This document shows positions 6,518 through 55,909 of a stretch of 64,000 bases of DNA, piece by piece; positions within the stretch are counted from its first letter, which is position 1, and each line of letters begins with the position of its first letter. This DNA is from Hyperoplus lanceolatus. Lineage: Eukaryota > Chordata > Actinopteri > Uranoscopiformes > Ammodytidae. Below the pieces are notes generated by a model. That model was not told the origin of the DNA and did no database searches. It saw only the letters and a list, made by a program, of their open reading frames with translations. Where the stretch lies: NCBI GenBank assembly GCA_026929865.2, contig CM049407.1:32889501-32953500 (forward strand), in the 5' to 3' direction. The translations under genes and the position numbers were made by a program.

Positions 6518-6518
6518 G

Positions 6519-8085: not shown

Positions 8086-8123
8086 AATGTGATTGATAGG
8101 CCCGAAGGGCTGCAGCTTCTGCC

Positions 8124-9909: not shown

Positions 9910-9941
9910 AGATGATGATGATGATGATGATGATGATGATA
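9907..9941. repeat. (GAT)n tail of Rex3 copy 1
   Basis: Eleven or so GAT units after GCGGTTGAA. Simple-repeat 3' tails instead of poly(A) are typical of the RTE clade. Confidence 0.93.
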
Positions 9942-26099: not shown

Positions 26100-29000
26100 A
26101 AACATCGTCCCCTTCGCATTAATTTATCGGTTTATTTTATAAACATGATGCCAAACCTGCTGCAGATCAGTTACCTTTGGTCCCAGCATTAAATAATTAG
26201 CCTAGTTGTCTTCTGCTGGGTGAAGAATGCTCATTTGACGGAGTTAACCAGCGATCTCATCAACTCCATTCATAAGAAACTATAGTACCCGAATTTTACA
26301 CGGTGCGCCACAAAGTTGTGACGAAAAACACTGTGCTAGTAGGATATTAATATTTTCACATAGGCAAATATTGAATCATATGTACAATGCACGTCAAATG
26401 AGCAAATTGCATGAATATGTTGGCGCTGGTCAAAGAACTAGGTCCCAGTGCCTTCAGGCATAGTTTTTTGATTTAACTTTACTTTCTATTTTCCATTTTT
26501 GACTGATATGTCTTAATGAGATGATGCAAAACAAGAATATTTCCACTTGTGGTAATCTTGTAATCTGAAATCTGATTAACAAGGAATAATTTCAGATGTG
26601 TATGTTATAGAAGAAGAAGATCAATGATGTGCACTGAAGCCTGTGGTATATGTCAGGTACATTTAAAAAAGGTCTAGTAAGCCTGTGAGCAGTTAATATC
26701 AGTCCATGTAGTTTTGTAAAATCATAAGTATGGGAAGCATGACATTTCAGATCCAGCACAAACAACTGGCAACGTTTGCATGATCTATTATTACCCTTTT
26801 CACAGTGTCTCAAAACTAAAAAGTTCAAAATATGCAATACAAGCTCTGTAGAGACAGCATCACAAAGAAAAGACAACAACAATGCTAAAACCAGATTATT
26901 AAAGAACACAAGCAGTGCAGAAATAGTGTCAGTAAAAGAACAGTAGGCATCCAACTCAGTGAACTTCCACAGACTGCAATTTTAGAAACGCAAGAACCCT
27001 ACATCCACTCCAAGAAAAATTATAAATGCCTGAATTAAACCCATGTTATTAGACTCCAGCCTTATGCTTTCACCTCTCTGCACCTACCTCTACCTAACGC
27101 CACCAGATTCCTGCACATCATTTCCGTCCAGCACCACTGTTTACGCTCTCCTGTTCACTCACACAGACTAATAAATAGGTTTCCAACAGCAAAATAACAG
27201 ATACAGGCCTACATGAACCACATTGTCACTGTCACAAACAGAAGCTACTCCCCAAACGAGCCTCAAACAAAATACACACTCAATGCGCACTACTGTCGCA
27301 AACAAACAGAAAGAATCACCACCACACGCCTTAAATGTCCATAAGTGTCACCATATCTGGCTTATTGCTTCCAAAACCCTAAACCACATTAAAATCTACA
27401 AATGTGTAAATAGCATCCTTTAAGAAAAGACTGCACACCCTTGATCATTTGTTTTCTACACTTACCTCTCGCAAAGCCAGACCAAACTAAATATCATGAA
27501 TATCTATCATTCAATCTTCATACTGAATTTGAGACTCATGTACGATCTACATTGGTTCTAAGCAATGACTGTGGTTCCGAGTAGTGAATAACACATTGTA
27601 GTGATGATAGAAAAACGTCTGAAATACTATGTATTCTGTAACAAGTGTCTACATAACCAGCCTATCACACTTAAATAATGCAGCCACAGCCAACTTCACA
27701 TGAATTAAGACACAAATAGTTTTCATCTCCAAACCTGATTGCACTACTGGTGCTGAATGGAAGAATAATCCCAGACCCTTCTCAATCCAATATAGCGATA
27801 TATGTCCAACTTTTAAAACTACGAGAACATCTTAGAAGTCAACCACACACAGCCTATCAACTTATTTACTTGCGTTATTTTCATACAATTAATAATAATA
27901 ATTTCAAGTGGACAGCTTCCTAAAGGTCAATTTAGATAATCAAATAAATAAATCAGAATATTTTGTCTATGTCGCATTCATTTGTCGGTTTATTTTTAAA
28001 ACATCATGATGTTTATTTCAGTCATATAACCAAGTAATATAACACATTATAGGACGTATTCAGTACAAAATTATAATTACAAGAAAAGTATCCATGGTGC
28101 TGATGTGTTGTCACAAATTAACTGACTCACAATTTGCCCCAAAGCCAACAACTGACTCAGCCCTTGTGCTGTTACGCATATGTGTGAATCCATCCACACT
28201 GTTCCACTAACAAGCTGTAGGGCTTGGAAGCTCCAAATATTGGCAGACTGAGAGTGGTAGCTCACATACTGCTATAAAACAGCCAATTGCCCAGTTGTCT
28301 GAATTCAGAATTGGCCTGCATTTGCCCCCAACCAAAAAAGAACAAATGCCTCATAGCACATCAGTCAGGAGGCGAACCAGCAACCTCAGATTCATCTCAA
28401 TACTCAATGTGTCAGAATCTTTTCAGTACTGCCACCAATTTACAGAACAAGGTCTGTGCTAGTTTGTTATTATCTCCATTAAAAAAAAAAATAAATAATT
28501 TAAAAAAAAAAAAACTTATGTAAAAAGAGCGGACTACAAACCATATCCACTAACTATGTCAAACTACGAAAGAAGAATAGCAAAATGCTGATGTTTTCCT
28601 ACATTGACAAGAGGCATGTGATATCGCATCTCATATTAGGCTCCGAGTATTGAAAGCACATTAGTGATGATATGAAAACAGTATGAAACACGGTAGTAGA
28701 GTTCATTCACAAGTTAAACTGATATCCCAGTAAACCCCAGCAAACACACACCTCCACGCTTCAATGGTAACACACAAACAGTTTACCACAAAACAATATT
28801 TCACTAAAAGCATGACAAATAATCACCTAATCCCTTCTGAAGTATGCCTAGGCCTAAATCTGAATAATAGCTGCTAAATGTACAATTTAAAACTGACAAG
28901 GCATCGACAGTCAGCTTAGCTAGCCTACTTGCTCCATATCCTCCCAAGCCTGTCACCACCAGGTCACCACCAGATAATCCAACACATGAGTAGGTCTCTA

Positions 29001-29420
29001 TGTCGCATTCATTTGTCGGTTTATTTTAAAACATCATGTTTTCAGTCACATAGCCTACCCATAGTATGCCATTCGCACAGGATGTATTCAGTAGCCTACT
29101 AAAAGAAAATGAAAATTCCAGCTAAATGTTACTAGTTTTCTGAATTTACTGTCTCCATTTTCAAACCAGATTAGCACACCACGGTTCCAGTAATGGTATA
29201 TTACAAAACAGGTGTGATGCATATTAAAGAGATCGGTGGTATTTGCTGATGTAGCAGATTTAAACAATTTACCAATAGACGTTACTCCACAGCCAACAGC
29301 TGGCTCCAAGCTTCGTGCTGGTTACGCACACTGTGACACACCTCACTCCTACATTGTATTCCACTCAAAGGCTGTGGGAGGTAAACCGATATTAATCAAA
29401 ATCGATTCTTACGCCAACAT
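26100..29420 (+). repeat. Decayed tandem duplication, period about 1.03-1.07 kb
   Basis: The phrase GTCGCATTCATTTGTCGGTT occurs at 27,970 and 29,001, with a weaker relative (CGCATTAATTTATCGGTTTA) at 26,117. Accompanying pairs are TTCCGAGTAGTGAATAACAC (27,575) with CTCCGAGTATTGAAAGCAC (28,641), and CCAACAACTGACTCAGCCC (28,145) with CCAACAGCTGGCTCCAAGC (29,293). Order is kept and offsets are 1,031-1,150 bp. No coding content. Confidence 0.65.
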
Positions 29421-30504
29421 GAACATATAAACATTGGACGTGTACGGGGTTTTGATCAGCATCGAATGAAGGCCACGCAGCCTGCTACCCTGACTACCCA
29501 TATTCTGACACACGCTGGTCTTCCTTGCAGTTCCTAGATGTGGGGTGATTACATTCAGTAGTTAATTTTATGTTTTGTAAAACAACTTTGGGTGTCAAGT
29601 GGTGTTGGTGGTTTCAATGAAAGCCAACGGACACAACAGAGTATGCACGCTGGCCATAATTTTTTTGAGCAGTTTCAGCCCATGGCACCCAAATGCCTCT
29701 CTTACTCAGGTAAATGAACACTGCATGAAGGTACACCGGTTGTCACATGTGCCTTCATGCTTGCTACTGAGCTTGTTATCACTGTCAAATTATTAATACA
29801 TACAGTGTCCTCCAAACCAGGGCCTCCAACACGGGCAGGTTTTCAGTAGCCCACTGGGCCTGTAGTTTGACCGACTAAAGGCAAGAAAAAGATGATCCGT
29901 AGTCCCATGATAACGGCAGCAGATATCTATGTTGCGTACGTAACTGCAGATTGAGTGAAATGCTAAGAAAGAAAGAAAAAAGCCAGCTGTGTGATCAATG
30001 TGATCGGCGCTGTGTGTAATATGGAACAGTTAGGCAAAGAGCTAAAATAACTGGGCTAGCTGTAGGCTGAGTTGATGTAGTAACTCTGGTTGTATTACTT
30101 GTATTATGTAGTAACATTTATTCATTTATATTTTGGGCGGCTCCACCATCCCACCCAGGTCAGGATAATAGCTCATTTCAGTTACCGCAAACAATGATGA
30201 GACAAAGGTCACCAAAAGTGGAGTCAGTCATTTCAGAAGATATAAAATGTCCAAAGAATCATATTCTATTAAGTTCCTCAAGATGATTATGAGTTGGTTT
30301 TAGATTCCAGAAAACTAAAAGAATATCAAGCAGCACTGAAAAAAATGTCTGCTGAATTTGTCTTGACATACCAATGTGAAGCTCCTTTTTCTGACAAGAG
30401 TGTCAGGTTTAAAACTGAAACTGAACAAAGATTATTTGATGAACATTCAAACACTGTATTAGGAGAACCTGAGTGCATAGGCCTACACCCATAATACAGA
30501 TAGA
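29421..30504. other. No confirmed gene; one possible exon-like frame
   Basis: A frame open from about 30,273 to 30,494 reads KLKEYQAALKKMSAEFV and later FKTETEQRLFDEHSNTVLGE, with a TTCTATTAAG acceptor-like start. The composition looks protein-like but I do not recognise the family and see no donor. Otherwise unremarkable AT-rich DNA. Confidence 0.25.
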
Positions 30505-31170
30505 AACAAAGGAAAATGTACTCTTTAGCTTGAGGAGAATTGCTCATCACCAAACATCTGTCAATAGCCATTCCTACATCACATTGAAGCTTAAGGTGCT
30601 GGTTTGAAATGTGTGTCTCTTTTTTTCCAACTTATTGTAATGAAGAAGTAATTTACCATCAAAGACATTCTGGGATATAGGAACCCATCATAATGGGTTA
30701 AGTCACACACTATGGGGTTGTTTTAGCTACAATGTTATTTTAATGGGAAAACCTAAAAGAAGGCAATGAGAACCAAATTCTGAAAGTTTAATTGCATTGT
30801 CAAGTTGACAAATAGGTCACATAACTTACTGTAGCCTTGGCAGCTGGTCTAGTTTGGGATGCACTGGGTTGTTTTGATTTTGCTGTCTCTTTCTTTGCTT
30901 GCTAGCTGGCTTTTCCTTAAGCCATTTTTCCAGGTGTCAGTGAGGATACAGCTTGACAATTTCTTTGTTATTAGAACTTTTTCCATTGAGCCTGAGATAA
31001 TATGACAACCAACTTCCTAAAAGCTGAATACCAACCTAACTTGAATTTGCTAACAAATAACAACCATCTGATAACCAATGCTTTTGCCAACAGCAATCTA
31101 AACCATAGCTTACCTTCACACTTTCTGAGGGTAACAGAAGGTTAATATAAACCCATTGTGTAAAAGCTAA
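30505..31170 (+). repeat. Dispersed repeat family, copy 1 (shared with 46.6 and 63.8 kb)
   Basis: Matches the reverse complement of 46,700-47,420 over most of its length. Shared stretches include GAATTGCTCA, TTGGGATGCACTGGGTTGTT, GTGTCAGTGAGGATACAGC and AAACCCATTGTGTAAAAGC. It has lost the GGGGAGA ends seen in copy 2. Confidence 0.78.
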
Positions 31171-32142
31171 AGCATGATTGAGAATGTGTGGAGCTGAATG
31201 ATAAGAAAAACACAAACATCCTCCCCAAATTCTGAATGCTAAGCTGTCTTCCTCTTACAGTTCAGCACTTCATCCAATTCTGGGACCTTTGATATATCAA
31301 CATTTTGAGTTAGCACAGCCATGGTGGCGAGAGAATTTATTGAGATCCAATCTGTGGTATAATGCATCAGTTTCTCCCTTATACTGTGGTGGACTCCATG
31401 GTAGCCAGTCATCTCACTAACTTTAAAAAAGACAAATATCCTAAGTCCCATGTACAATAAGATGCCTATGGGCAAGGGGTGGTGACAGTCTTTGGTCCTT
31501 GATGTGAATTTTCAGTGATGTGAAAAAATGAAATGGATTTTATGTGAAATAATTTTTGATAAGCATTGGGTATTGCAATTTCACACGTCAGAAGCTTAGT
31601 TCAGTTTATGTGCTATGTGAAATACAACATGTGCCGTGCAGCTCTTCTACAGAGAGTATAGTTTCACTTTAGTGCCCACCAAACATGCTGGCCCATTGAA
31701 ATTCTGCTGGGTACTTCTGGCTTAAAGACTAAAGTGATTGCACCTCACAGTCCCGGCTCTGAGAAGCATCTTTGGCCATGACTGTGGCGGGACAGGGACA
31801 CCAAAGAATAGGGCCAGATGGTGCGGAGAGGCAGCACTTTGAGTCTGCCCATGTTCGTTATTCAGTCCCCAACAGTTAAACAGTGTAATAACCCTTTTGC
31901 TAAACAGTTATTTAACTTAGTGTCAAATTGTTGTTTTGGAACAAACAGTCACCTATGTGATTCGGGATCCTGCAGAGAGTATTTGAGAGGGGTGGGGCTC
32001 TGATGGCCAGCACAGTGTGTGTGTGTGTGGGCGGGGGAGCAGTGGAACTGAACAGAAAAGAGAGAATTACACAGTGATTTGATTGACTGATGGTGATTAG
32101 ACCACAAAGCCTTTGTCTTGATTATATACACAAATCCCTGGA

Positions 32143-32204
<62 letters not shown>

Positions 32205-33324
32205 CAAATTCAAACAATATTGGTGGTTGAAAGTTTGTAACAGCATAATGCTGCTGTGCCAAAGTATCAGATAATAATTCAATAAATCAGAAACATAAGG
32301 AACATTATATTACTTCTTATATACTGTGTGTGTGTGCCCGAATCATTCACTGGCCCTCAGGTTGTAAGATTGTTAGTTACCCACATGATGTCCTGGCCTC
32401 CTTCTCTGAGAGTTTTGATGAGAGGTCAGTCAGCTCTTGAAATCTGGTACTACAGAGCTGAACTTGTTCAAATACAATTTTTCTTGTATCAATTTAATTT
32501 TGGAGAACATCATATAAAAACTGTCCCACCTACCCAGTCGAATAGTGAATCATGTTTTTCTGTTTTCTTGGTTGCCTTGGTTAGGATCTGTCTCTGCTTT
32601 CTATCTCTGACAGTAGAGAGATATTCTGCTAATTCATAATTTATTTTAAGGGCCAGATAACATTCCAACTAATTTATTTCTTTTGAGTTGTTTCTTCCCA
32701 GTGGTCCATAGTTTTTTTACATTGTGCTATAATTTGCTTTACTCTGGTGGCTCAACATGTTTTTTCCTTATTGCCCACGGTTATGTGGATCTGAGTTTTT
32801 CTGGAACCCAGGGAATCTTTTTTCCTAGAGTTTTAGTCACAATTGGTATAGAGTATATAAGCTCTTTAGATTTGCTATTTTTCTTTAGTTAATGATAGAG
32901 TCAATATTATTGCTCTATACAATAGAAGAGTTAGGCAAAACATATTGAATGTGAAGCCTACAACTGAAAGTATAAGGAAAGGAGTGTGCCAGGGCCAAAG
33001 TCCAGTAGTTTGATGAATGGTTTTATTCTTGAATTTGGGCAGTTTAATGAATAGTTCACCTGCAGAAGTCATGATCAAACATAGGGAAAATAAGAGAAGT
33101 GGTAGGCAGTTTTTATCACTTTCTCCATATCCAGTAGGGATGTGAATGTTTTCCATTCGGAGTCTGGTTCTTAAAAATAGAAATCCGAAAATCAGTGTTG
33201 CCTATTTTCTAGTGGATGTCACCATGCTGGTCATTAATGATGCAACAGGAGTGCAAGCCAACAAAGAAGCAACACTACATAAGAAAAATATGCAGCATAA
33301 GTTGTAAACGCTCTGCCTAAGACT
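31171..33324. other. No gene; (CT)n microsatellite at 32,146-32,205
   Basis: The CT run is bordered by CAAATCCCTGGAGTTT, which recurs in reverse beside the GA run at 47,644-47,695. The two loci therefore share a repeat that contains the microsatellite. A short GT run lies at 32,016-32,028. Open frames at 31,239-31,475 and 32,328-32,639 carry no motif I recognise. Confidence 0.5.
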
Positions 33325-33507
33325 ATGATGTTAAATCACCTTAGAAACACAATGCCTAGTGCGAGCCACAAAAGCCACCGTGAGATTTTGCAGAGATATT
33401 TGAAAAGGGAAGAACTGCAGCTGACTAGCCAAAATACAAATCACAGTGATAGCTCCTGCATGTCATTGGGGAAGGCTTCGCGATCTGATGAAGGTTCTGA
33501 GCCTTAA
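33325..33507 (+). pseudogene. Possible BED-finger/hAT transposase remnant
   Basis: The 60-codon frame contains MLNHLRNTMPSASHKSHREI. This resembles the end of a BED zinc finger (usually ...NHLRNKHP), with the second His replaced. The upstream Cys pair is not readable in frame. It could be a chance match. Confidence 0.3.
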
Positions 33508-33933
33508 ACACAGAGCCATGTCGGCAAAACTCCAAAATCCCCTGTTAGTTTTGCCAAGGTTTAATAGTTTACATAGTAATTACAATCAACAGCGACGCAT
33601 TCACAGCGGTTAAATAAAAAGTCTGTTAATTAGTTATTGTAAGTGCCAGATAGATTGAATATTAGCAGCAGCTAAAGGAAAGTTTAAGGTCATTTTTGGC
33701 CTTCTGCACCTCAACCTCTGCTGCTGTGGAATGGAAAGAGCAAGGCAGCCGATTGGATTTGTTGACTGTACTTAATAGTTTCTGTCAGATCCCTAATATT
33801 GAGTTTGGCCTCTTGGTATTGTCCTGCCATGAGCGGACCGGAGGGTAGGCCTAAAGCCTCTGCCAATTATAGAGTGCGCTCATGAGCAGCTCACTTATGA
33901 AAAGAACAGTTGTTAAATTGATTTTGAAATAAA

Positions 33934-34621
33934 AGCCATTGAATTTTAAGCACTGAATATTTATGCATTGAAATAATGTATCTGAATTTTTTGCTGCATT
34001 GAAATAATGTATTTGAATTAATTTTCACCTTTATTTTACAATGTTCTCAAATTCAAAATCAAATATTCAACGTTAAAATTCAATTTGCCAAATTCAACTG
34101 CAAAATCCCATGTATGAAATTGAGTAAAACTTTGGGGACCCAAGGAAGAGTTACCGATCATAGATGCTAGATTGCGTCTGAACAAAGAGAGCCAGTGGGA
34201 ATATATAAGGGAAGAATATAATATGACATATGCGTTATGTTTTGTAATGCACCCAGCACTCTCTACTTGCTACGCTTGACATGGCTAAAACCTGATTTGC
34301 TTTCCTGCATCAGTCAGGGTACCCAAGGCAACGAGCTAATATTCACTTGTTTTTCATGAATGCGATCTAATATCTGCATCGATTGCTCTTCTGGGTCCCC
34401 AACGTTTTACTCTGAATTTCATATGGATTTGCAGTTGAATTTGGCACGTTGGAATTTTAATGGAATATTTGATTTTGAATTTGAGAACATTGTATAATAA
34501 AGGTGTGAAAATTAAAGCGCTAGTACCTAATTAGTTAAACTAGGAGGCAAAAATTGATGCATTATTTCAATGGTAAAAAATTGATATATTAAGAATAAGA
34601 AAATATTCAGTTAAAATTATA
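33934..34621. mobile_element. Palindromic miniature element, arms about 200 bp
   Basis: 33,934-34,160 and 34,375-34,621 are reverse complements. Pairs include CAATGTTCTCAAATTCAAAA / TTTTGAATTTGAGAACATTG, GCCAAATTCAACTGCAAA / TTTGCAGTTGAATTTGGC and GGGGACCCA / TGGGTCCCC. The loop is about 215 bp. The arms are AT-rich and diverged by about 15-20%. No transposase. Confidence 0.8.
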
Positions 34622-35069
34622 ACACTAAACATTAAATCCGATGACACTTTTAGCTTCCATGGATCAGCTTGCATAAAACGCCACCTATAGAATATGTCCA
34701 CTTAATTTTTATTAAAAAAATATAATATTATGATATATGGAGCCTAGGAAGTAATACTGCTTATTACGACTCAGCTGGCTTTGTTGAACAACTCATGTCA
34801 TGCAACATATGCATATATATTCCATCTGTCTCTGATTTCACTTTCTATAATAAATGTGAGTCATCAGAGTGTACTGAGAGAGGGGGCACAGCCTCAGCAC
34901 CAATCACATGGACTCTTTTCTGGGCTCATCTCTTGGGTTTGGAGGGCCTTAGAGTGGAGGGTGTCTCTGGGGCTGGATTTCAGGGTATAAAGAGAGTTCT
35001 CTTTGAATGTATGACGTATGGGAATCTGCCTAATTCTGCTCTACATGCATTTGTTGTGTTTCAGCATTT
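34622..35069. other. No gene recognised
   Basis: Contains a 110-codon frame overlapping the left end of the next element; its composition is not convincing and no splice context supports it. Confidence 0.4.
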
Positions 35070-35568
35070 AAAGGCCAGGACACACCAGTCCACTACCCTA
35101 AATATTTGCCATCTCAGGAGCTCCTGAGTCTTCTCCCGTCGCGTCGAAAAAGTGCAAGAATGGCTACCAAACAATGTTGCCTTTCCACACGCTCTGCTGC
35201 AAAGTGATGCACAATCAAACAGAAAGAATCTGTATTGTGGTCCAAAAAGAATTTTCCAGAAACATTGACTGTCTTGTACTATAAACTTAGATAGAAATAC
35301 GTATTTATATTTATGGACCATAAAGATCACCATTTTTAGCAGAGAGTGTCGAGCATGGTGCCGTGCAGTCAATAAGACACATTAAATGATTTAGTACTGG
35401 GCTGACCAAACAACATGATTAAAACGATGGCAAACTGTTGTTAGCTGTTTGTGCTACCCGCTCACTGGTCATTGATCACAGCCCACAACTCAAATACCCA
35501 ACTGAAAGACTGTCCTGCCACTATTGGAATATAAACCCTTCAACGGCGACACGGGCCGGTGTGTCCTG

Positions 35569-38329
35569 GGGCCTCATTTATAAACGTTGCGTATGCTCAG
35601 AAGAGGGCGACGCCAATTTCTAAGCAAATATTGGATTGCAAAAAACCAAACTTGACGGGAGATTAAAGGCTCTCTCCATGCAAACTCTGACCCATGCGCA
35701 GACGCATTGCAGTGAGAAAGGAGGCCACCAGGCTCTGCCAGAAGGCCAGGAAGAAGTGCGAGAACGAATGTTTTGTGTAAATGAACTAGATAGGCCTATT
35801 ATGTTTAAGTAGGTCTATCATGTTGAGTGTGGTAATGAATCCCACATGAGGGCATAGGGAGATCTGACTTATCATCAGTACTGGTTATTCAGAAGAGATT
35901 CCAATGAGCAGCAGAGGATTTACAGGTATAGTGGCTGAGGCCGAGTGGCACTGTCGTTGCTAGTTAGAGAACCCATGGAGACTCAGTGTGGGGTGTATCA
36001 TGTGTTCTTAATATCTGCAAATAGACATATCGTTTATCACAACAAGTCAAGCACATGTCCTTACAGGGATCTGACCTCAACTTAGATCATTACTACAACT
36101 TTGAGGAATAGAGGCTATTCAAATTACACATTCTCCATTTAGAACAATTCAATTCTACCAAAACAAGATGTAACCAAACATATTTGAATAGCCTAACAGA
36201 AACCTCCAACAAAAACACAGAAACACTCTTTTATGAGGAAGTAGAATACAATGCAGATGAAAGCATTACTGTAGTAACCATGTTAGTTGGGACCAACAAA
36301 GCAAAGAGTCACAAACACAACTTAATATAAAGAGAATAGGGTGTGCGAGAGCTCCTCTGCAGCCGAAACTGGAGTTTATTTTAAGCTCATATTTATAGCT
36401 ATGGTCAATAGTAAATAAAATCAATCCACCTTAGCACAGAGGATGGCTCCTCCATTTCAAACTTGGCAGACTCCGCCAGACGGGCCAGCCGCCCAGGAAA
36501 GTCCATAGTGCTGGCGTAAGGTATCTCCGCTTATCAGCCAAAGTATTTGATGAATGCACTTGCACAAAGCAACTGAAGCTTGAGTTCTTGATGGTATTGG
36601 TCTCAATCTTTTTCCTCAGCGTATATAGCATAGAGCGACTTAACAAGCTTGAACTAGTCCAGCCTTTTTTCCCAAAGTCTTAGTCAATAAACGTGTACTA
36701 AGGTTCTTTGTTAATAACAGTGGAACTACTGGATACCGTCGTACCGGAGCCTCTGTGTTAGTCCTCTAGGACCGATGCCACGCCGTGACTTGTGAACTGA
36801 CAGAGCACTTCCATCCCCAGCTCATTTATTCCGAGCAGTTCCTCAAGTTATTTGGAGGACTGAATGAAGAACCTTTCAACTTGGACGCTCATCCGGGATT
36901 CTACTTTGTCTGGCTTCCTCACAGCTTCATCAGATATTGCTCAAGTGCTAGGTAGATCTGCTCCTGTTATATCTGTTCGTGATTTAAAATGGCATTAACT
37001 CTGCAGCTTGACAAGACAAAGTAAGAATTTGACTATCACTATGATCAGTTTATTCAGAAGAGATTCACCAGACAGAGTGATTCCCACAGTGGTAGCAGTT
37101 TTGCTGAGGCCGCAGTGGCACTGTCGCTGCTAGCAAGGAGAACCCACATATCTGTGGTGTGTCACATTAATATCAGTAAATAGACATATCGTTTCATCAC
37201 ACAAGTCAAGCACATGTCCCACAGGATCTGACCTAATCCCTCAGATTCCACTATCACACCTCATGAATGGATGGTCTAAATCTACAACATAGGAGTTCCT
37301 TTGGCAAAACGGATGGAGCCATTCTTACAACTAATGAACAAATGCCTCCACGGATTATTCCATGGAGGACACTAACAAAAACAAAACAGTCAGGATCTAT
37401 AGCCTACAAACGGAGATAGCTATAAGGAGTGCAATGAAACAAAATAGCGTTTCGAATGCTTCCTCAAAGTCTAGAATAACCTATCGTGCATGTTGTGGAA
37501 TTAATTTGATAATAATAGTAATAGTGTGAATGAAAATATTACTTTTACACTGACGTTGGTTTTATTGCCTGGTCAGGCATAGGATGAACCTTTGTACACT
37601 AAACATGGGTTTCCATTGCATCATATGGGCTACTGTGATTTTTTTCACGCTTTTTAGTCCGTTTTATCTATGTGTTTTTCTTTGAGTTTAAGCACGCCGC
37701 AATTGTGTTTTGAAAGGACTGTGAAGAGTTTTTTATTATTGAACCCTGCCCGCCACCCGCCACTGCCTCGGGATGAACTGGTCTGTAGACTAAGTGGGGG
37801 TCTCAGTGTCCCCGCTCGTGCACAAACACTGTTGAATGAGATATGTACTTGTTTAAGGCCCACTTATGTCGGTTCGTTTCTTTTTATTTCGGCCACAGCT
37901 GCTCACAGAGATCGCCTCAGGCTGCACTCTGACGCCTTTACGCCTACACTGCCACCAAACTATATTTTCCCCTGGTCGCCACTTCTCCAACGGGTACTTA
38001 GGGTGACTGCAGTGATCCACACCGTGTGGAGTCTATTTTCCATTTCCTTTCAGTCGGCGATTGCTACTACCGCCTTCATGCACTCAGTAAATTATATTAA
38101 TTTGGGCGTGTCGATGACTATGTATGGGTAAATATGGGCGGTACGTGAAGCTCCGCGGTTCATGCTACATTTAGAGCGTGATTGTGATTTATAGTGCAGC
38201 AGGTGCAGGGACGGAGTGCGCACTGTTTTATAAATCCGAATATTTTTGTTCCTCGCACGCATACCTTCCACATTTCTTCCGTACGCTGCTTCCACGTGAA
38301 TCCCACGCAAAGCTTTATAAATGAGGCCC
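35569..38329. mobile_element. TIR element with GGGCCTCATTTATAAA ends, 2.76 kb
   Basis: Ends GGGCCTCATTTATAAACG and, on the right, CTTTATAAATGAGGCCC are inverted repeats. CTG flanks both sides (35,566-35,568 and 38,330-38,332). Subterminal motifs CGTTGCGTATG and CCCACGCAAAG also pair. No recognisable transposase; a 153-codon frame at 37,670-38,131 has no known motif. Superfamily not assigned. Confidence 0.75.
35870..37260 (+). repeat. Diverged direct repeat, about 220 bp, 1.17 kb apart
   Basis: 35,880-36,095 and 37,045-37,255 share TTCAGAAGAGATTC, GAGTGGCACTGTCG / CAGTGGCACTGTCG, AAATAGACATATCGTTT and CAAGTCAAGCACATGTCC in the same order. They could be an internal duplication or the ends of a small inserted retroelement; no coding parts were found. 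Confidence 0.7.
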
Positions 38330-38342
38330 CTGGTCTTTAAAT

Positions 38343-38989
38343 GTATCTGCAGAATTCTGCATGTAGAGATCACATGGAGATTGTCCAAATGGTATATTCT
38401 ATGACTGAGGATCTCATTTTTGCCAGCTCCATTGCAGCTTTAGAATGAAGTTGATGATGACTATCAAATATTTTAAGCCACAGATTCTATTTGAATTTGG
38501 AAATTATAAATATTTCTCTTTAATTGTAAATAGAGCTCTTCGAGCTTTTTCTTTTGGCATTCACTGCTATGTTGAAACTCTCTGATGCTGTTATGGTTAT
38601 AAACAAGGTAGGTATAACCTCATAATGTGTTCAATGACATGATTACTGATAGTAAATTGATGTTTGTTCTCATGACACCTGTAGTAATAGATCATGATGT
38701 TGTTTTTTTATGTTTACTGCTGAAATCAGTCTAAGAAAAATTGTTCTACTGTTGCTGTAGTCCTTGTCTAGCAGGGGGAGAAGGTCACCAGCGAAAACAA
38801 GGACTCCCCACCTCTTATCGAGAGGAGAGGTTATGAGCAGCACATTGATCTAACTCAACAGCCAGTTCATTTATATATTAAATAGCTGACTTGATTGCAC
38901 TGACGCTTTTTGATATTTCTTCTTTACAGCATCAAACAGCCAAACACATCACTGTTAAGTGTGTTGAAATGAAGAACGAAAGTGAAATG
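38343..38989. other. No gene recognised
   Basis: AT-rich. A small inverted pair TCCTTGTCTAGCAGG / ACAAGGACTCCCC lies near 38,761-38,812. Confidence 0.4.
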
Positions 38990-41900
38990 TATTAAAATAG
39001 TGGGAAATTATGGTCTAAAGTAACCATAAAATGGGTCATCAGTAGTAAGTAAGAAGTAGGGAAGGGAATATGGTGGAATAAATAAAGAAGTAAAATATTT
39101 TTAAAAAGTTAATACAAAGGAGAGGGATGTAGGAAGCAATAAGAAGGTCTTGTAATAAATGTAAAGAAGTTATCTCAAACGAAGCAGCCGGAAGTTTACC
39201 GTATGGTAGAGAGAAAGTTCCAGTCGCTTCTGTAAGACCGCACATCGTCGATATCCGGTACTCACAGAAGTTGTTAGAAACGTTATATCACAGTAGTAAA
39301 ACACCATTATGTCAGGTAAACGTTGAATCAGTTTTAAGTTGTAAACATAGATATCATGAACGAATAAACAATAGTATGACGATCCAGGCGTTGATTTTCT
39401 TATATACAGTATGAACCCGTATAGTGATCAAGTAAATGAATCAATTACAGTCAAAGAATATCAAACCAAAGAATGTATATCGCAAAAGATGAGAACCAGA
39501 TGTTAGGGTTGACAGAGCAAATCATTTTTCATCCGCAGCACACACAAATGTTCCCATGAGGTAAATGTTGAACGGACAGGGGTCGTTTTATAAAAAGTAA
39601 TGTAATAGGTGGGGAACATTTAAAGAAAATCCATACTTATGACGTAATTAGAAAGTGATAACCGTATGGATAAAAATAATCAACAAATGTATTAATCCTG
39701 TTAAAGGTTTAAAGCCTTACGTAAATATCGGTCTAACTGGAATTAACGCACGAAACAGTGTATCGTAAACGAAAGTAAACAGTGATGTCGTACCAAAGGG
39801 GACTGTAAACTGGCGTTAATTGAATAAAAAGAGCCTTTGTCTTCCGGTGAATGTTGCTTAGTAGTCATAACGTGGAAATGAGGCGTTAGCGGCACGTATG
39901 TATATATAAGGTAGTGCAACACAAGTAGTACGCATAATATGATGTGTGAAGAAGTTGTATTCAATGACCAAATCATAACGGCATAAACTAGTATAACAAA
40001 GCCAGAAATCGCGGTAAACAAAGGCAGATTCTTTGCATTATCAAACATCATCACCTTTTGCTGGTATAACCCGTCGAGGTAATAAACGCTTAGTAATTAA
40101 AATAGCCAACAGTAACAGCGTAAAGTAATCGTATGTGCATCGAACGCTCTATATACTAATGGAATATTAAAATGTAATAGTAATAAGCTTTTTAAACAAA
40201 GCTTTCCGAATGATAATGAGATTTACAACAAAGACTTCCATCTGGGGAATTGAATGTAAACTGAAGTTCGGTAAAGATCGACATCATATAGAGTAAGTTC
40301 GTAAAGTTGGGTCAGGAATAAATGTAACATAGAAGACGCAAAACGAAATTGAATTCCCGCACGACACACGAAGTTGCAATGAAAGAATCATGACGCTTTG
40401 ATCGACTTCAGATCTTTGAAAATGATTATCACTTAAATGAACAGCTTCTGAATGGCATCATCATCTTGTAAGATCAGGAAGATATACAAAATGGTACAAT
40501 AAGTTGAAAGTTACATATACATCAAATCTTCGTAATCATGGATCTGAGGCGATGAAATAATGAGCTCGATCTTAAACGAATGTTAGGCAATAGATCCACG
40601 CATTATCCGAAGCCTTAAAACAATGCTTATCTGTAATGTAGTTCATAGGAAAGTATTCTCTATTACAAAAAACATCCAGAACGTAGGAGAAAGCAGAAAC
40701 CCAAAGATTGGGAAGGGAAATCGTAAAAGTACTTTCCTACCGATCAGTACAGAATATTTGTATTATACAGAGAAGTAGCCATTAAAATAACGAAGTAACG
40801 CTTAAGCTTTGCATAACAAAGTCCGCTTTATATCATAAATAGAGAAAGCGTTATTGGGTAATAAATCAGTTAATAACGTTACAGAGCGCCAAGTGGAATT
40901 AAGTAAATGTAATAACAAATCAGAAGCCTTATGAAAAGTTCTACGCGTTAGGTGGAATGTAGAAGATTTCCCACAAGTTTATATAAATAGTAGAAAATGA
41001 TAAATTAAACGAATTAAATTTTTAACAAAACGAACAAACAAGATAAAAATGAATCGCAGCACTTTGCAGTTCGTGTTTGATATAGCATGTCGTGGGAAGA
41101 CTGTAGAAGAAATTGTATTAGCTTTCTTCATGAAGGTTCCCGAAATAAAGCTCCAGTTTGAATATGAGAAACAATCGACCTGAGTCCAGTCGATCACTGA
41201 AATGAGAGTCGCAGAAATCGATGCACTGGCTGTAACAGGTAATATCGAATGCAACAACACATATCTGCAATAAGATTCCTCGATGAAATCAGAAGATAAA
41301 GAACGAAATGAAAATAACCATGCTTTTTCGATTCGAAAAGAAAGATCTGTAACGATGGAAAATACTTCATGAAATATAAATAAAAGAAAGATTGAATGTA
41401 GTGATCTGAATGATATCGAGACCAATGAGTTTCAATATAGTATGGTTGAGTTCATCAAAGAAAGCTCATAGATACAATTCCTTAAATAATCAGTGAGAAA
41501 CAATGTTATATAAACCCCACATAAACCATAATAATATAGTAAATCAAATAAAGCACGTTAATTTTTCAAACAATCGGTTGAGCCTCGTTAACGGGTTACG
41601 TAAAGAAGTTAACACAAAGGTGGATCACGAAGTTTAAGAGAAACGTACAACTTCAAAATGGGAAGAACTAGAAGTTATATCAAAGTTACAAAACCAGGAT
41701 GCTGAAAACACATAAAGAAAGAAAACACGCCCAGTTAGAATGTCGTAAACGTGAGCAAAGACCTGTAATAACGTTGAACTAAGTCGGAACGAAACCATGA
41801 TAACTGAACAAGAGAGGGCTGTACTGCCAGCCGCTAGAGAAGAAAGATTTCAGTAATCAAGAACAAGGCGATTTCAACTGCAGAGGGACAAGGGTAGCAT

Positions 41901-42360
41901 TTTGACGATGTTTGATGAACATGGATGGGTGCTGTAATTTAAATAGCTTAAATCGATAATCACATGCTTGTTTCAACATCCAGCTGAGCCGCCTAATCGA
42001 CGGATTTCATCTTTGAAAATTCTTGATAACATTCACAAACACTGCAGCTTTGAGACGGCAAGAAGATAGATACAAGGTCCTGTGTTATGAAGACTTGACC
42101 AATCATAGACAGAAACGAATGGTTTTTCCTCCGGTTATACTATTTTCTTATGGAGATGAAAGAAGAAAAGGATTTTAATAGATTGAAATGAGAGAATGAA
42201 GACAGATATTGTAGGGCAATAACATCATCACATGTATATCTTCACCAGTATCAAGAAAAGCTTCTTCCTCACTTGAACATGTTGCCTAAGGAAGAACATA
42301 CCCACGGTTCATATATAAAAATGTACAGGTCTATTCACACATTCTACTTTGTATTTAAAA
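38990..42360. other. AT-rich tract with undepleted CpG, origin unknown
   Basis: By hand count, 39,181-42,000 holds about 108 CpG in 2.8 kb at roughly 35% G+C, slightly more than composition predicts. The neighbouring 44,101-44,460 has five in 360 bp. The + strand is purine-rich, full of GTAA and AACG words and dense in stops. The minus strand has two long T-rich frames (39,743-40,054 and 40,979-41,425) with hydrophobic products but no motif I know. No repeat family, TIR or host exon was recognised. Confidence 0.55.
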
Positions 42361-42399
42361 ATTTTCCCGCCATAATGTTTTTTTTTCTATATTAATGAA

Positions 42400-45300
42400 T
42401 CAGCAATACAGGTATTATGCATTTTATTTAAACAGACTACAAAAATGTAAGTGAAAGAGCAGCGTGCTTCTATGGTTGTTAATCCACATAAGGTGCAAAA
42501 ATGGAAAGCGCTTAAGTATCCAGGGTTTTTTACCCCGCCAGAGCAATATTGTTCAGCCGGGAGGTGGTAAACCAGTTTTAAATGTCACTTTTACTCTTAA
42601 TGGAATGTGGAAGTACTTCAAAATGTGTAACATCCTTCAATACCCTAATAACCCCTGATGAGCATGGTTATCGTTATGAAATATGAAGAACAGCTGAATA
42701 ATATGGTAAATGGCCAGTTGGAACAAGGCCTGAAACCATATGTTGCTAGTAGGTATTGTCCGTTTAAGAAGTCTGGATGTTGAATGCTGTTATGTTTTCT
42801 CCAAACTCATCTCAGGACTTGACCATAACAGACGCGTAGTGACGGGGTAAAACAATGTTTTAATCTTTGAGAAAAATCTAGTGCTAAGCAGTTTCAGAAT
42901 AATGCACACTCTTCGTCATCATGTGGTTACTGCAGACCATCTGGGTAGATCTTTGTCGTGGGTCACAGCACCCGTATAATGCGCTTTCATAACTTTATTA
43001 TTGAATAAGAAACAACTGAATATTTATGATGCAGAAAAAATTCTTAATTTAAGCATCATTATGAATATATAGCTTATTTTTTTAGGGGTGATTTCAATCC
43101 GAATTTATTAGAATCTAATACTGGATCATTCCTCTAATCAATCTCATTGCGCCAAATTCCGCATATAATTAATGCTTTTTTCGGGAAATGTGGTAATAAC
43201 GCCTGAACCTGAAATTTTTGTAATTCATAATCTTCTAAGTATTATTCATTTTTTTCCCCAGTACATAACTTAGCCTGTATTGATTACTTTTTGAATTGGA
43301 GGAATGAAAGCATGCTTTCAAGTAGACTGTGGATAAGAGGTAATGTTGTCTCACTACAATGGTTTTAGCAATATCTTTCCAAAGAAATCTGTCAGCCTTA
43401 GTTTTTAGTAGTAGTTATTGGGAGAACGCAGTTATATTAAGTGTAAGAGGTAATCATATTTTCAATCGTGAATATACTTTGATTAAACCACCCTGAACCC
43501 ATGTTTTATAGGAGAATATTATCTCTACACCTCCTGGGAAGCCAGGTCGAAACGCCTAAAGACCTTTCCGACCAAATTAAATAATGGATTATAAGAACTC
43601 ATGTTCTATCGCCAAAAGATTTTCAGCAAGGACATTTGACTTGGGTATAGACTGATTCATATCACTGTGCACATAGTGAAGAAGTCTCTCTGAAGTCTGA
43701 ACACGAGGTTATATGAACATTATTCCATATAACATTGCAGAAAAAGCCCCTGGCTCAACAGGTTAGACAGTCTATGACCTCTAATTATTACAAACATCCG
43801 AAAACATGATGGTCAGATCTCTAATGATGAGCAGGAAATTAATGATGAATTTAAGAGGTTTTATTCATCTCTTTATACTTGAGGTGATATATGACCCTTC
43901 TAAACTTGAACTTTTTTTCAGAACTTAAATCCACCTCAAGTTAATGTATTATTAATGGAGCAATTGGAAAAACCTTGTCTAATGAGAAATCATATTTCTT
44001 TTGAAGTAGAATGCAAAGTCTGAAATGACGGATTACGCCAGAATTTTAAAAATATACAAGTTATTTTAATCTTGTTGTCAGTTTTTGAGGAGTCCTTTAA
44101 TGGCCACCTTCCACCAACCCTTTGAAGGCCTCTATTTCTGTTTTGCTTGAAAAAGAATAAGGGACCCCTGAATTGTGGAATACTGGGCCCCATTCCCACT
44201 TTCCAGTTGTGGGATTAAATGCAGACTAAGGCCTTGGCTCAAATGTCTAGAGATCAATTCTCCCTTTCTATTGCTGCACACCTGACCAAACTGCTTAATA
44301 AAATGCCTCTTTAATATTCCGAGACTTTAAACACTACACATTCAACAGACATCAAACAGCTATGCTCCGAGGCAGTTACCTTTAGACGCTGAAAAGGCGT
44401 CTGCAGAAAGTTGGAATGGGTTACTTATTTGTGTCTATTGGCTCTGGTTTTGGTCCGAACACTTCTTGGGTAACATATAACTTCAACTTCATCAGTACAC
44501 ACTAATAACACCAATTCCCAATTATTTCCATTACAAACCCGGACAAGGCAGGATGCCCATTTCCTAGTTCCTTTATTCATGTATATTTATTAGAGCCTCC
44601 GTAATAAATGCATGCTCTTCCAGATCCAGAATAGGGGTAAGGAACATAAACTTCACAGTTGATGATCTGTTACTATATATAACTGATCCAGAAGTATTCT
44701 AAACTGTATTGTTATTTTTTTGAGAATAAATGTAAGGGCCTTAAATAGGGACAAATGTCTAAAAAAGGAGCTCTTTTTCCTGTCAACTCCGGCCACAAGT
44801 CCATCTCTTAATTCCTGTCCTTTTTAAGGTGACATCTGACAACTTCATCAAACAGTGTTGTTACGTCATTTTTCTGGACCTTTGAACACACTTGCTCCCC
44901 TTCTTGAGTGCCACTAGCCATACTTTGAATAGTCTGTATTCTCTCTCTTTAGTAGAAAGAATGGACTCACTGTAAATGAACACACAGTTCCAAATTCTCT
45001 AATTTTTCAAATCAGAAATAATCTTATCAACAAATCTTTCTTTCACAATCTGGGTCCAAGATTATATCTGACTTTATTTAAATATAAGGTGCCACCCAGA
45101 TCCGTAGGGAATTTTTGCAGAGGCCAAGATCAATGGGCGGTATGGCATTACCACATTTCCAATTATACTATTAAGTGTTTCAAACCTAAGAGCTATGTAT
45201 TGGCTTAAAACCACTGATCAGACCTGCCTGGGTTCAAGATGAAGATCCACATGCTGTTTGCCATCGTCCCTCCCTGCTTTATTAATCAATGCCTGCACTG

Positions 45301-46492
45301 GGTTGTGTTTCAAGTGCCTCCCTTAGTACATCAGTCTTGCTGATATAGCTCAAGTGCAGCACTTGGTTACAAGTAGTTGGTCACTCTGAATTCAGCTGCG
45401 CTTCTAATCAATGATTTGCCTCTGCCTGCTAACAAGTTAATACTTAGTTTCGCCTACAAAAAGAAGACAGTTTAAAGATATGTACATAACAGGTGTTTTT
45501 GCTTCATTCTGGAACAGTCAAACAAACAATTGCCAGAACATTTTTAGTTATTTACAGGTTAGGGACTGGGCACGTAACAATACAGGAACATTCCCTACAA
45601 TCCCCCAGCCTCAACCTATGGATAGCCTTCCCAGCAGACCCAGAACCTAGTAATACTCAGGTATAAACTTTCTGTGAATGAAAAGCCTCTGATGGCTGAG
45701 TGGTATAGAAGACTGAATGTACAATTTCAGATGCTGGAGTGGCTCTACTGTTGCTAAGACACATTCTCATCATGTGCTGTATCACGGCTTGATCCAGTTT
45801 AAAGTGGCACACAGCGACCTTAATTTCTAAAGCCAGAATTCAAAAAATGTATCCATCATGTGATAGTTCATGCAAATAGATGTAAAAATTCACTGTCAAG
45901 ATGAAGTCAGAGGCTTGCTTTGTCGAAAACCGTTAGGCTACTGGTCCCCATTTTGATCGCCTATCCGACACAAGAATAACAGTCTGCCAATCCTTACAGT
46001 CAAGCATGCTCAATGAGGTGATCATCTTAGAGCAATAAATCAAACTGTATTGCCTTGGTCACTCTTATAAAAAAATGCCAGAAGACAATTTTAGCTTTAA
46101 TGAGCAGGGTTATTCCGTACCTCCTTTTAAACACTGGATTAGGGACACACTACAATTTCTAAAGCTTGAAAAGTTAAGATTTGCTTTAAAGGGTTCAAAG
46201 GACAATTTTAGCAATGTCTGGCAGCCTTTCATTACATATCTGCTTGACCAGCCTCTAAGAATGTACACATTTATTTTTTAATTTTATTTTTTTCACTTGT
46301 ATTTTGCTAAGGATCTCAATAACTCTAAAACTGTGCACACAATTTTTCTTTTTTCTTTTTGTTGTCATTGTTTGTTTTATTGTTATTATAACAATCATTG
46401 ATTATTGATATATTTGTGTCTGTCTGTCTTTGGGGATTAAAAAAAAACAATTTTTGCTATATTGTGAAAAATCAATAAACAAAGTGGAAGGT
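42400..46492 (+). mobile_element. L1-like LINE, heavily decayed
   Basis: Readable islands in changing frames follow the L1 order. Endonuclease end YSFFSPVHNLACIDYF is near 43,240-43,290. A pre-RT piece FKRFYSSLYT is near 43,850. The RT entry PLDAEKA then EWVTYL-like is near 44,380. The C-terminal part MGGMALPHFQLYY is near 45,133. LKLEKLRFALKGS is near 46,160. An AATAAA (46,469) and poly(A) end at 46,492 close the element. The left limit is uncertain. Confidence 0.75.
42770..46281 (+). pseudogene. L1-like ORF2 remnant
   Basis: Endonuclease, reverse transcriptase and C-terminal segments are all present, but no frame stays open for more than about 70 codons. The longest clean piece is the C-terminus 46,075-46,281, with the phrase WIRDTLQFLKLEKLRFALKG. 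RT motif C was not located with confidence. The breaks are mostly short insertions and deletions, far denser than in the I-like LINE or Rex3. This means either great age or poorly corrected sequence. Confidence 0.72.
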
Positions 46493-46626
46493 AAAAAAAA
46501 AACAAATCCAATTTTTATATTCTAGGTATGTCAGTGTGTTCGCCTGTGTTGTTTTAATGTGTTCTGTAGTGTATACTAGCCTAAATAATTTTGCTGGTAT
46601 TGATTTAGTCAAATTTATACCTTATA

Positions 46627-47468
46627 GGGGAGAACGGGTTATATGTCACCTACATAGTCTTCCTTGGAGTTAGGCTGCTGAATTTGAGGTGAGAGGACTG
46701 TTTGTGTTTTTCATGTCAAATTGAAAATATTTAGCTCCTCAGTATTTTTCTCCTAGGCTTTTACACAATGGGTTTATAACAAAACACTTGTTACCCATAA
46801 AAAGTGTGAAGGGTAAACTATAGTTTAGATTGTGGTTAGCAAGCTAATTAGTTGTCAGATGGTTGTTGGCCTTGATGCTTGCAAGAAATTCAAGTTGGGG
46901 TCGTCACATTTTTTGGGGTGTTGGTTGTCACATGTTATCCAAAGGCTGCAGCCAGAAAAGGAACCCAATAACGAAATAAATTGTCAAGCTGTATCCTCAC
47001 TGACACCCCAGAGAAGGAAAGAATAGAGCAGGAAAAGGCAGCTAGCATGCAAAAGAAAAAAGGGCAACAAAATCAAAACAACCCAGTGCATCCCAAACTA
47101 GACCAGCTGCCAAGGCTACAGTAAGTTATGTAGGCCTATTTGTCAACTTGACAATGCAATTAAACTTTCAAATGTAGTTCTGCCTTATTGCCTTCTTTTT
47201 AAGATTATTCCCATGAAGATAACATTGTGACAAACAACCCCATTGTGTGTGACAACCGACCCCTTGATGGGGTTGGTTGTCACAATGTGTAAGGGAGTCT
47301 TTGATGATTTCTTCTTTATTACAATAAGTTAGAAAAAGTGAGGGGTACACATTTCAAGCCATCACCGTAAGCTTCATTTAATGTAGGAATGACTATTGAT
47401 AGATGTTTAGGTGAGCAATTCTCACTAGATTAAAAAGTGTGCCTACTATCCCCGGTCTCCCCTACAGA
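46627..47468 (-). repeat. Dispersed repeat family, copy 2 with GGGGAGA inverted ends
   Basis: Ends are TAGGGGAGAACGGGTTATAT and, read in reverse from the right, TAGGGGAGACCGGGGATAGT. The interior matches copy 1 at 30.5 kb over about 650 bp in reverse. The right part (47,290-47,468) matches copy 3 at 63,830-64,000. The termini suggest a non-autonomous DNA transposon of about 840 bp. A 64-codon frame at 46,832-47,026 lies in it without a known motif. Confidence 0.8.
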
Positions 47469-47481
47469 CTACATAGCCTAT

Positions 47482-47526
47482 TGTGTGTGTGTGTGTGTTT
47501 GTGTGTTCGTTTGTGTGTGTGTGTGT
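47482..47526. repeat. (GT)n microsatellite, interrupted
   Basis: GT units interrupted by TTTG and TCGTTTG, next to the right end of dispersed repeat copy 2. Confidence 0.9.
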
Positions 47527-47638
47527 GGCCGTGCGCGTGCTGACCTCCGCTCTCTGTCCATGGTGCTGAAACACCGTTTCTCTACAATATGCATTGTGAA
47601 CGTGAGATGAAGGCCAATAGGTTGTACTTTAGTCCTTA

Positions 47639-47643
<5 letters not shown>

Positions 47644-47679
<36 letters not shown>
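47644..47679. repeat. (GA)n microsatellite
   Basis: About 18 GA units followed by CTCCAGGGATTGTGTA, which matches in reverse the flank of the CT run at 32,146. Confidence 0.92.
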
Positions 47680-47680
<1 letters not shown>

Positions 47681-47689
47681 CCAGGGATT

Positions 47690-47989
47690 GTGTAAATAGC
47701 CGGAATATAGGACGGTTGGTCTAATGCGCCTCCTTTTTCAATAATCGGACAAACGGCACTTCGGACCAATGCTTTCCGTTTTCGTTACATTGAACCGTCG
47801 GCATAGTGGCATGTCAATGTAATGGGAAATATTTCGGACCATTGAGAAGTCGGAACAATGAGGCGTTGGAATAACGGGCAGGCCCTGCTGATTAACGGCC
47901 GCGATATGCGGATTGTTACTGCAGATTAACGTGTCACTGTCACCTCAAATTAACCCATTGATGACTATGGCAATCTAGGATGCATGTCC
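47690..47989. other. Short stretch with recurring TCGGA(C/A)CAAT words
   Basis: Words such as TCGGACAAACGG, TCGGACCAATG, TCGGACCATTG and TCGGAACAATG recur at 47,747-47,866, suggesting a degenerate internal repeat. No gene. Confidence 0.45.
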
Positions 47990-47993
47990 TTAA

Positions 47994-48536
47994 AGATCTC
48001 CTATTATACTACTTTTCTGGTCTTAATTTCTTGTTAAAAACTGCTATAGAGCAACCTGACACGAATCACATCGCAAAAAACCATGTAGATTTTCGGGAAA
48101 CTCTTCCTCTCATCTGAGCAAGCACAGCAGTCTCGGCTTTGTGCTTCTCCGCCCACCCCCCCCCCTCCTGCAAACCCCACTCCGTTGTGATTGGTTACCT
48201 TCCTTCCGGAACACTTTCAGCAGCGCGCGGGGAGATTTGAGAGCAGGAAGGTTGGGGCATGGCTGGAGCTTGCCTGAGCAGCATTACCATACATGGAAAC
48301 ATCCGCTTTCGTGACGACAAGAATATCCGGAAATTCTGAACCGATTTGAACAAGTGATTTCTCGACCGGCTGCCCTAGTGTTTAGTGCTCTGCACAGCCA
48401 CCCCAGACGGTCAGCAGGGAATACGTCTAAATGCATGTACGTCATTATTTGATAAGCTAGTAAGGTTAAACATGACTTTAAATCTTTATAACAATATTTA
48501 TAGGTCATAAAAGTCAAAAAGTATCATAGGTCCTCT
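47994..48536. mobile_element. TTAA-flanked miniature element, 543 bp
   Basis: Left end AGATCTCCTATTATACTACT and reversed right end AGAGGACCTATGATACTTTT are inverted repeats. TTAA occurs at 47,990-47,993 and 48,537-48,540. TTAA target duplication is the rule for piggyBac-type elements. The fragment at 21,650-21,771 is the same family. Confidence 0.78.
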
Positions 48537-51492: not shown

Positions 51493-52595
<1,103 letters not shown>

Positions 52596-54803: not shown

Positions 54804-54886
54804 TGTGTCCCAGCCTGGTCCCAGCGCCCCCCTAGGTTGTACGAACGCCCCCCAGGGGGCGGTACCGCCCTCGTTGAGAAACCCTG
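53485..54886. mobile_element. hAT-type element in the 5' part of the Tc1, exact 8-bp duplication
   Basis: Ends CAGTGGTTCTCAACC and, reversed right, CAGGGTTTCTCAACG. CAATATAG stands at 53,477-53,484 and 54,887-54,894. Inside are a second hAT-like start CAGGGGTGTAAAGTAGCG (53,784), probably an older truncated insertion, and a 35-base poly(A) run at 54,766-54,800. No transposase. Confidence 0.9.
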
Positions 54887-54928
54887 CAATATAGGAAAGA
54901 AAAAGGATCTCTCTGCTGCCGTCCAATA

Positions 54929-55909
54929 GTGCAATACCTTGGCCAAGGTATGAAAAAAATTGATATTTCACGGAAACTTAAGCGTGATCATCGTACTGTG
55001 AAGAGATTTGTGGCTGATTCAGAGCACAGACGGGTTGGTGCAGATAAAGGCATAATGAGGAAGATTTCTGCCAGACAAATTCATCGGATAAGGAGAGCAG
55101 CTACTAAAATGCCGTTACAGAGCAGCAGACAGGTATTTGAAGCCGCTGGTGCCTCTGGAGTCCCTCGAACCTCAAAGTGTAGGATCCTACAGAGGTTTGC
55201 AGCTGTGCATAAACCTATTATTCCGCCACCCCTAAACAATGCTCACAAGCAGAAATGGTTACACTGGGCTCAGAAATACATGAAGACTATTTTTCAAACA
55301 GTCTTGTTTACTGATGAGTGCCGTGCAACCCTGGATGGTCCAGATGGATGGAGTAGTGGATGGTTGGTGAATGGCCGCCATGTCCCAACAAGGCTGCGAC
55401 GTCAGCAAGGAGGTGGTGGAGTAATGTTTTGGGCCGGAATCATGGGGAGAGAGCTGTTAGGCCCCTTCAGGGTCCCTGACGGTGTGAAAATGACCTCGGC
55501 AAAGTATGTTTAGTTTCTGACTGACCACTTTCTTCCGTGGTACAAAAAGAAGGACAGTGCCTTCCGTAAGAAAATCATCTTCATGCATGACAATGCACCA
55601 TCTCATGCTGCAAAGAATACCTCTGTGTCATTGGCTGCTATGGGCATAAAAGGACAGAACCTCATGGTGTGGCCCCCATCTTCCCCTGACCTCAACCCTA
55701 TTGAGAACCTTTGGAGCATCCTCAAGCAAAAGATCTATGAGGTTGGGAGGCAGTTCACATCAAAACAGCAGCTATGGGAGGCTATTCTGGCATCCTGCAA
55801 AGATATTCAAGCAGAAACTCTCCAAAAACTCACAAGTTCAATGGATGCAAGAATTGTGAAGGTGATATCAAAGAAGGGGTCCTATGTTAAAGGTCACATA
55901 TTATGCTAA
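54929..55909 (+). pseudogene. Tc1-type transposase, DD37E spacing, one in-frame stop
   Basis: One frame from 54,929 to 55,909 is broken only by TAG at 55,511-55,513. A small upstream deletion near 54,920 removes the usual start: KKDLSAA is readable just before it in another frame. DNA-binding helices are seen in MKKIDISRKLKRDHRTVKRF (residues 8-27) and KISARQIHRIRRAA. Catalytic residues are the Asp in LFTDECRATLDG, the Asp in FMHDNAPSHAA and the Glu in NPIENLW, with 37 residues between the second Asp and the Glu. The last six codons come from the TTAA element inserted at 55,887. Such enzymes cut and paste their element at TA sites. Confidence 0.88.

Follow-up and report, generated by a model that had tools for sequence, protein, structure and literature searches.

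The AT-rich tract at 39181-42000 is very probably no biological feature and is best explained as the worst-read part of a low-accuracy assembly run of ~20.8 kb. It lies in a window, by which we mean the whole 64-kb stretch of DNA analysed here (C13:32889501-32953500), on contig C13, which ends at 33.03 Mb. We favor an assembly error because a second copy of the locus carries the same L1-type element and matches the window at ~98%, then 75-81%, and then 99.1% identity, and because the intervening differences are clustered and deletion-rich with a transition/transversion ratio (Ti/Tv) of 0.99, the L1 in the counterpart is young, and the tract itself is faintly colinear with the counterpart.

The original prediction described about 108 CpG dinucleotides in 2.8 kb at roughly 35% G+C, near or above expectation, together with a purine-rich forward strand and an excess of GTAA and AACG words, and our counts reproduce each of these properties. 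Across its 2820 bases the tract holds 107 CpG at 35.5% G+C, an observed/expected ratio (o/e) of 1.22 compared to 0.56 for the whole 64-kb window; mononucleotide shuffles of the tract contain 87.6 ± 7.7 CpG, and 14 of 2000 reach 107 or more. The + strand is 58.6% purine with A-T and G-C skews of +0.20 and +0.11, GTAA occurs 43 times against 24.8 expected from dinucleotides and AACG 25 times against 15.4, and long A runs are rare. The highest CpG o/e of any other 2820-base window within the 64 kb is 0.89. A comparison with windows across the genome had been proposed as a check on the CpG ratio, and the ratio withstands it: at 22 loci of the same genome none of 557 such windows reaches 1.22 (maximum 0.93), including a low-G+C subset of 125 with a mean of 0.41 and a maximum of 0.82, where the 557 overlap and are N-free, those containing N (two half-N loci) being left out. 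The tract is less unusual at the 500-base scale, where an o/e of at least 1.0 is seen in 16 of the 479 overlapping windows of low G+C that lie outside it in the 64 kb. A trinucleotide model trained on the tract itself bounds the odd segment at 38965-42264 and gives the tract a score of 249.8, with at most 26.4 elsewhere in the window or in 20 sampled 10-kb loci. The idea that the sequence is printed backwards, so that CpG stands for GpC, fails since GpC shows no depletion (0.98), and a G+C content of 35.5% is too low for a CpG island. An unmethylated region, also proposed at the outset, is not needed to account for the tract.

The window is colinear from 23428 to 48118 with C13:32689100-32716045, and the colinearity takes in the same L1-type insertion as well as its flanking sequence to either side. 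The two copies of this duplication, separated by ~224 kb close to the C13 contig end, are near-identical at both ends; the duplication may be real, or the noisy run may have joined a false duplication of haplotypes. The accurate left flank (23428-25827, + strand) is 93-100% identical per 150 bases to the sequence from C13:32689100 onward, and 98.1% identical over a 2.1-kb local alignment. The low-accuracy run then extends over 25830-46644, with approximate edges, and is 75-81% identical to the second copy where it can be aligned. Within it lie a smaller hole at 26418-26759 that aligns at only 60%, an alignable noisy block at 26760-38899 (+ strand; counterpart C13:32692458-32705235) with 81% identity, 1062 mismatches, 589 deletion events, and 266 insertion events, and a right noisy block at 42264-46400 with 75% identity to its counterpart. 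Between the two blocks, 3223 window bases (38900-42122) face 4374 counterpart bases (C13:32705236-32709610) with no BLAST alignment, and the tract forms the core of this worst-read stretch. The tract does not form a unit of its own; it is part of the low-accuracy run spanning ~25.8-46.6 kb. Identity is already ~94% from ~46.2 kb, near the right edge of the run, and the accurate right flank (46645-48118, + strand) is 99.1% identical to C13:32714566-32716045. At 46644/46645, where accuracy returns, 96 counterpart bases are absent and the 5-base word GTCAC stands at both edges, which looks like a join.

The differences within the run have a read-like character. Pooled over the two alignable blocks, there are 844 deletion and 381 insertion events and a Ti/Tv of 0.99, with 0.81 and 0.78 indel events per mismatch in the respective blocks. 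Perfect and garbled runs alternate on a scale of 20-100 bases, and the longest identical runs reach 162 and 126 bases in the two blocks, where ~38 and ~25 are expected. Among the four bases A is lost least often, being deleted at 5.8% and substituted at 5.7% of positions compared to 8.7-12.2% and 8.7-12.7% for the other bases. Counterpart homopolymers of at least five bases are shorter, equal, or longer in the window in 64, 53, and 5 cases; the same count with roles swapped gives 37, 55, and 9, so that part of this shortening is ascertainment, and the remainder appears real but moderate. For a second repeat to the left of the tract, three other copies (L031, L032, and L033) agree mutually at 92-98%, while the window agrees with them at 79-84% and, judged by eye, departs from all three in clusters. 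An excess of deletions over insertions may hint at nanopore over other long-read technologies.

Indel richness by itself is not specific to the patch. Two inverted copies of a LINE, which we take to be Rex-like, lie outside it at 8102-9930 and 18511-20341; they share 91% identity and differ by numerous small indels, at 0.67 indel events per mismatch, with a Ti/Tv of 2.42. The segment 22634-23488 compared to L029 gives 0.34 indel events per mismatch with a Ti/Tv of 0.84, the segment 30535-31167, inside the patch, compared to 46757-47423 gives 0.65 with a Ti/Tv of 1.38, and the accurate left flank itself has 25 indel events and 9 mismatches. Such comparisons beyond the patch imply either that small errors are more widespread in the assembly or that some of the indels are natural. 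A further LINE with endonuclease and reverse transcriptase domains occupies 4323-7529 on the - strand, and its ORF is presumably zinc-knuckle-like; over 4323-6368 it keeps a single frame with two in-frame stops in 2 kb and is therefore not garbled in the manner of the patch. The window also contains a satellite array at 1-4328 (197-base unit, 21.8 copies, 92% matches), a perfect GT repeat of 57.5 units at 52465-52579, and a transposase frame at 54878-55909 (+ strand) with one stop at 55511-55513, which we assume to be Tc1-like and whose first part matches no Pfam family.

A further measure of divergence comes from the L1-type LINE that adjoins the tract. The end of its ORF1 (41820-42122, + strand) can still be traced inside the right end of the tract and corresponds to positions ~945-1327 of L003, the L1 in the second copy of the locus (z ~12), and a garbled copy of the inter-ORF region, ORF2, and 3′ part follows at 42123-46506 (+ strand), colinear with L003. 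The ten longest matches outside the second locus copy stop at the equivalent of 46499-46512. Searching the genome with 42001-43300 returns 23 matches, including the query itself, from 12 scored candidates, and the five retrieved copies (L003-L007, on C13, C3, C6, C23, and C4) are 94-99% alike over their aligned parts. Several L1-type copies sit within ~0.6 Mb of a contig end. L003 has an intact ORF1 of 358 aa at 162-1238 that scores 20.9 bits for Transposase_22 (E 4.7e-4), under the curated 22.4, and an ORF2 at 1981-4143 that stays open over at least 721 aa and encodes an endonuclease and a reverse transcriptase domain (Pfam Exo_endo_phos, 3e-13; RVT_1, 1.2e-33). From these ORF1 and ORF2 domains we class L003 as an L1-type element. 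The window copy is assigned by colinearity alone, as its own frames match no Pfam family, and 42002-42205, which finds no match in Pfam or PDB, is settled as ORF1 solely through the intact copies. The prediction that a CpG-poor L1 directly follows the tract is thus borne out, its L1 identity through intact relatives and its CpG poverty by measurement.

The window copy shares with L003-L007 the colinear ORF1 end, ORF2, and 3′ part, but whereas those five are 94-99% alike, it reads at ~73% identity to L003; 163 deletion events and 65 insertion events separate the two, and stretches of 93 and 61 bases match perfectly amid garbled ones. Its differences from L003 amount to 0.75 indel events per mismatch, compared to 0.09-0.17 for other L1 copies in four comparisons. 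In one stretch, 874 columns are unanimous among five other copies and the window deviates at 245 of them; the private differences of those five copies in the same comparison number 2, 12, 57, 24, and 26. L003 is young, given its 95-99% identity to copies on four other chromosomes, and the duplication that carries it must be younger still, so the window copy should match it almost perfectly, in the way the flanks do. Near-identity is expected and ~25% divergence is seen, and sequence error is the simple reading.

The run could instead be a truly divergent copy, arising from an old duplication or a local mutation process, with flanks recently homogenised by gene conversion. We consider this very unlikely, although several observations are consistent with it. 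The run sits 0.08-0.14 Mb short of the C13 contig end, indel-rich repeat divergence is also seen beyond the patch in the Rex-like pair, and the alignable blocks preferentially lose CpG, keeping 170 of 333 and 26 of 77 compared to 392 of 575 and 84 of 168 for GpC; faster loss of CpG than of GpC would also be expected from natural decay of methylated DNA. However, the same L1 is present in both copies and is too young in the counterpart for 25% divergence, and neither a Ti/Tv of ~1, a 2:1 ratio of deletions to insertions, nor the alternation of perfect and garbled runs every 20-100 bases favors an old natural copy.

The colinearity extends, faintly, into the tract. When 38900-41819 and C13:32705236-32709220 are aligned globally with anchored ends, the score is 3607; with the tract shuffled 16 times this amounts to z 8.4, and with the counterpart shuffled 16 times to z 6.5, while 61 controls give z values of at most 3.3 and at most -0.3, respectively, and scores of at most 3317. 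Controls on the pair itself comprised the counterpart reversed, reverse-complemented, complemented, rotated, or with its halves swapped, and the tract reversed; the remaining controls were three other parts of the locus and 52 segments from 13 of 20 sampled loci, on both strands. The first z is the safer measure because the second is biased low in the controls (mean -5.1). Most of the signal comes from the right half of the tract (z 7.3-10.4 and 4.6-5.8); the left half gives 3.7-5.5 and 1.6-1.7, the latter, against shuffled counterpart, being weak. Free-ended tests upstream of ~41700 find no clear similarity to the counterpart (z at most 2.2). Judged from these alignments, the tract is best taken as a very poor reading of the counterpart sequence, surely in its right part and probably in its left. 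The original description of the tract as lacking recognisable homology therefore needs amending, as L1 ORF1 is detectable from ~41820 and the rest is faintly colinear with the second copy of the locus.

Database searches provide no other source for the tract. A six-frame search finds no Pfam or PHROGs family, a phage search yields no significant match (seven records with short matches, E 0.02 or worse), a plasmid search yields none, and two tract ORFs find no relative among viral contigs; an ORF of 150 aa at 40979-41431 on the - strand has neither a Pfam family nor a viral-contig relative. A search of the window against Rfam and for tRNA genes returns no match. No clear 3-base periodicity or excess of open frames is present in the tract, the largest z being 2.1 on the minus strand, and a folding test over 24 windows and two strands gives a single outlier (39101-39300, minus strand, z -3.6 with 40 shuffles), the remaining 47 of 48 strand-windows being no lower than -1.84, so that there is no clear folding signal. 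The longest exact word common to 38701-39400 and 41801-42600, direct or inverted, is 10 bases, leaving no longer terminal repeat or target duplication. Internal duplication scores 338 compared to 310 ± 34 in shuffles, and the tract matches the rest of the window no better than controls, with a single 29-base match. Used as a query in its 807-Mb genome, the tract returns only itself, and no match with this tool does not prove rarity.

Of the options raised at the outset, a recent foreign insertion finds no donor match in Pfam, PHROGs, phages, plasmids, or, for the two ORFs, viral contigs, shows no word longer than 10 bases shared between its ends, and is at odds with the faint colinearity with host DNA; an unnamed class of element is likewise undercut by the lack of a second copy, of a clear coding or folding signal, and of a terminal repeat longer than 10 exact bases. 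The error-rich assembly patch is the option that the steps in accuracy, the read-like errors, and the colinear trace in the tract support. We see only a very small chance of a real foreign or novel insertion of ~2-3 kb at 38.9-41.8 kb within a badly read locus. The CpG level and word usage of the tract, which are unlike the noisy blocks on either side, the single copy found in its own genome, and the weak similarity of its left half to the counterpart would agree with such an insertion; the colinearity with the counterpart, however, is specific, disappearing on reversal or rotation of the counterpart or on exchange of its halves, and the searched libraries, the coding tests, and the sequence ends add nothing in its favor.

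The CpG level is the feature that an error patch explains least directly, as CpG is raised in the tract and lowered through the rest of the patch. The tract's counterpart itself retains CpG, with 187 in 4374 bases (o/e 0.89) and values of 0.79-1.07 in seven of eight 500-base steps, and the unaligned stretch has an o/e of 0.89 in the counterpart and 1.15 in the window. A content rises from 31.7% in the counterpart to 39% in the tract, which fits the patch-wide tendency for A to be the base least often lost or changed. Since the noisy blocks lose CpG and the garbled L1 segments have an o/e of 0.54, errors of that type would not raise CpG, and the noise of the tract must be different, in kind or degree, from that in the rest of the patch. 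Word usage in the garbled L1 segments shifts only part way toward that of the tract, and in the garbled segments to the left of the tract it hardly shifts at all. A real process restricted to this locus, which rewrote 20 kb near the chromosome end at 20-25% divergence, mainly through small deletions, after the insertion of a young L1 and the duplication, leaving a 3-kb core that is near random and has gained CpG, is highly improbable. A large, non-autonomous transposable element that keeps its CpG is scarcely credible: young elements here can hold CpG near 1 (0.85-1.04 in the L1 ORF1 region), but 807 Mb yields only the tract itself, in a search where no match does not prove rarity.

Under the assembly-error reading, the most likely course of events is that uncorrected or half-corrected noisy long reads were set into a duplicated locus, rich in repeats, close to where contig C13 ends. 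A single raw long read or a handful of them, perhaps from nanopore sequencing, may have been the source, and the short perfect runs could be spots repaired by short-read polishing. The patch could stem from a single raw read, from a consensus that failed, or from a read that bridged a false duplication. The CpG of the tract would then be in part inherited from its CpG-keeping counterpart (o/e 0.89) and in part base-calling noise. Where uncorrected noisy long reads have been used to fill or bridge a gap, the picture is like that of this patch: accuracy falls abruptly, small indels are deletion-rich, errors cluster, and the locus is rich in repeats. The DENTIST paper (PMC8848313) includes the statement that the sequence put in by gap closers is often not the true one, and the POLCA paper (PMC7347232) includes an average long-read error of 8-15%, compared to which the tract is garbled more deeply. 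These two papers and those on Polypolish (PMC8812927) and TGS-GapCloser (PMC7476103) are used here only for the occurrence of such patches and leftover errors.

A striking compositional anomaly is thereby explained away as a quality fault and not a discovery. Odd CpG content, odd words, absent homology, and a single copy allow such a patch to pass for foreign DNA. Annotating the 20-kb run as it stands would yield false pseudogenes and false repeat ages. Were the patch real, it would instead reflect an unknown and very local mutation process.
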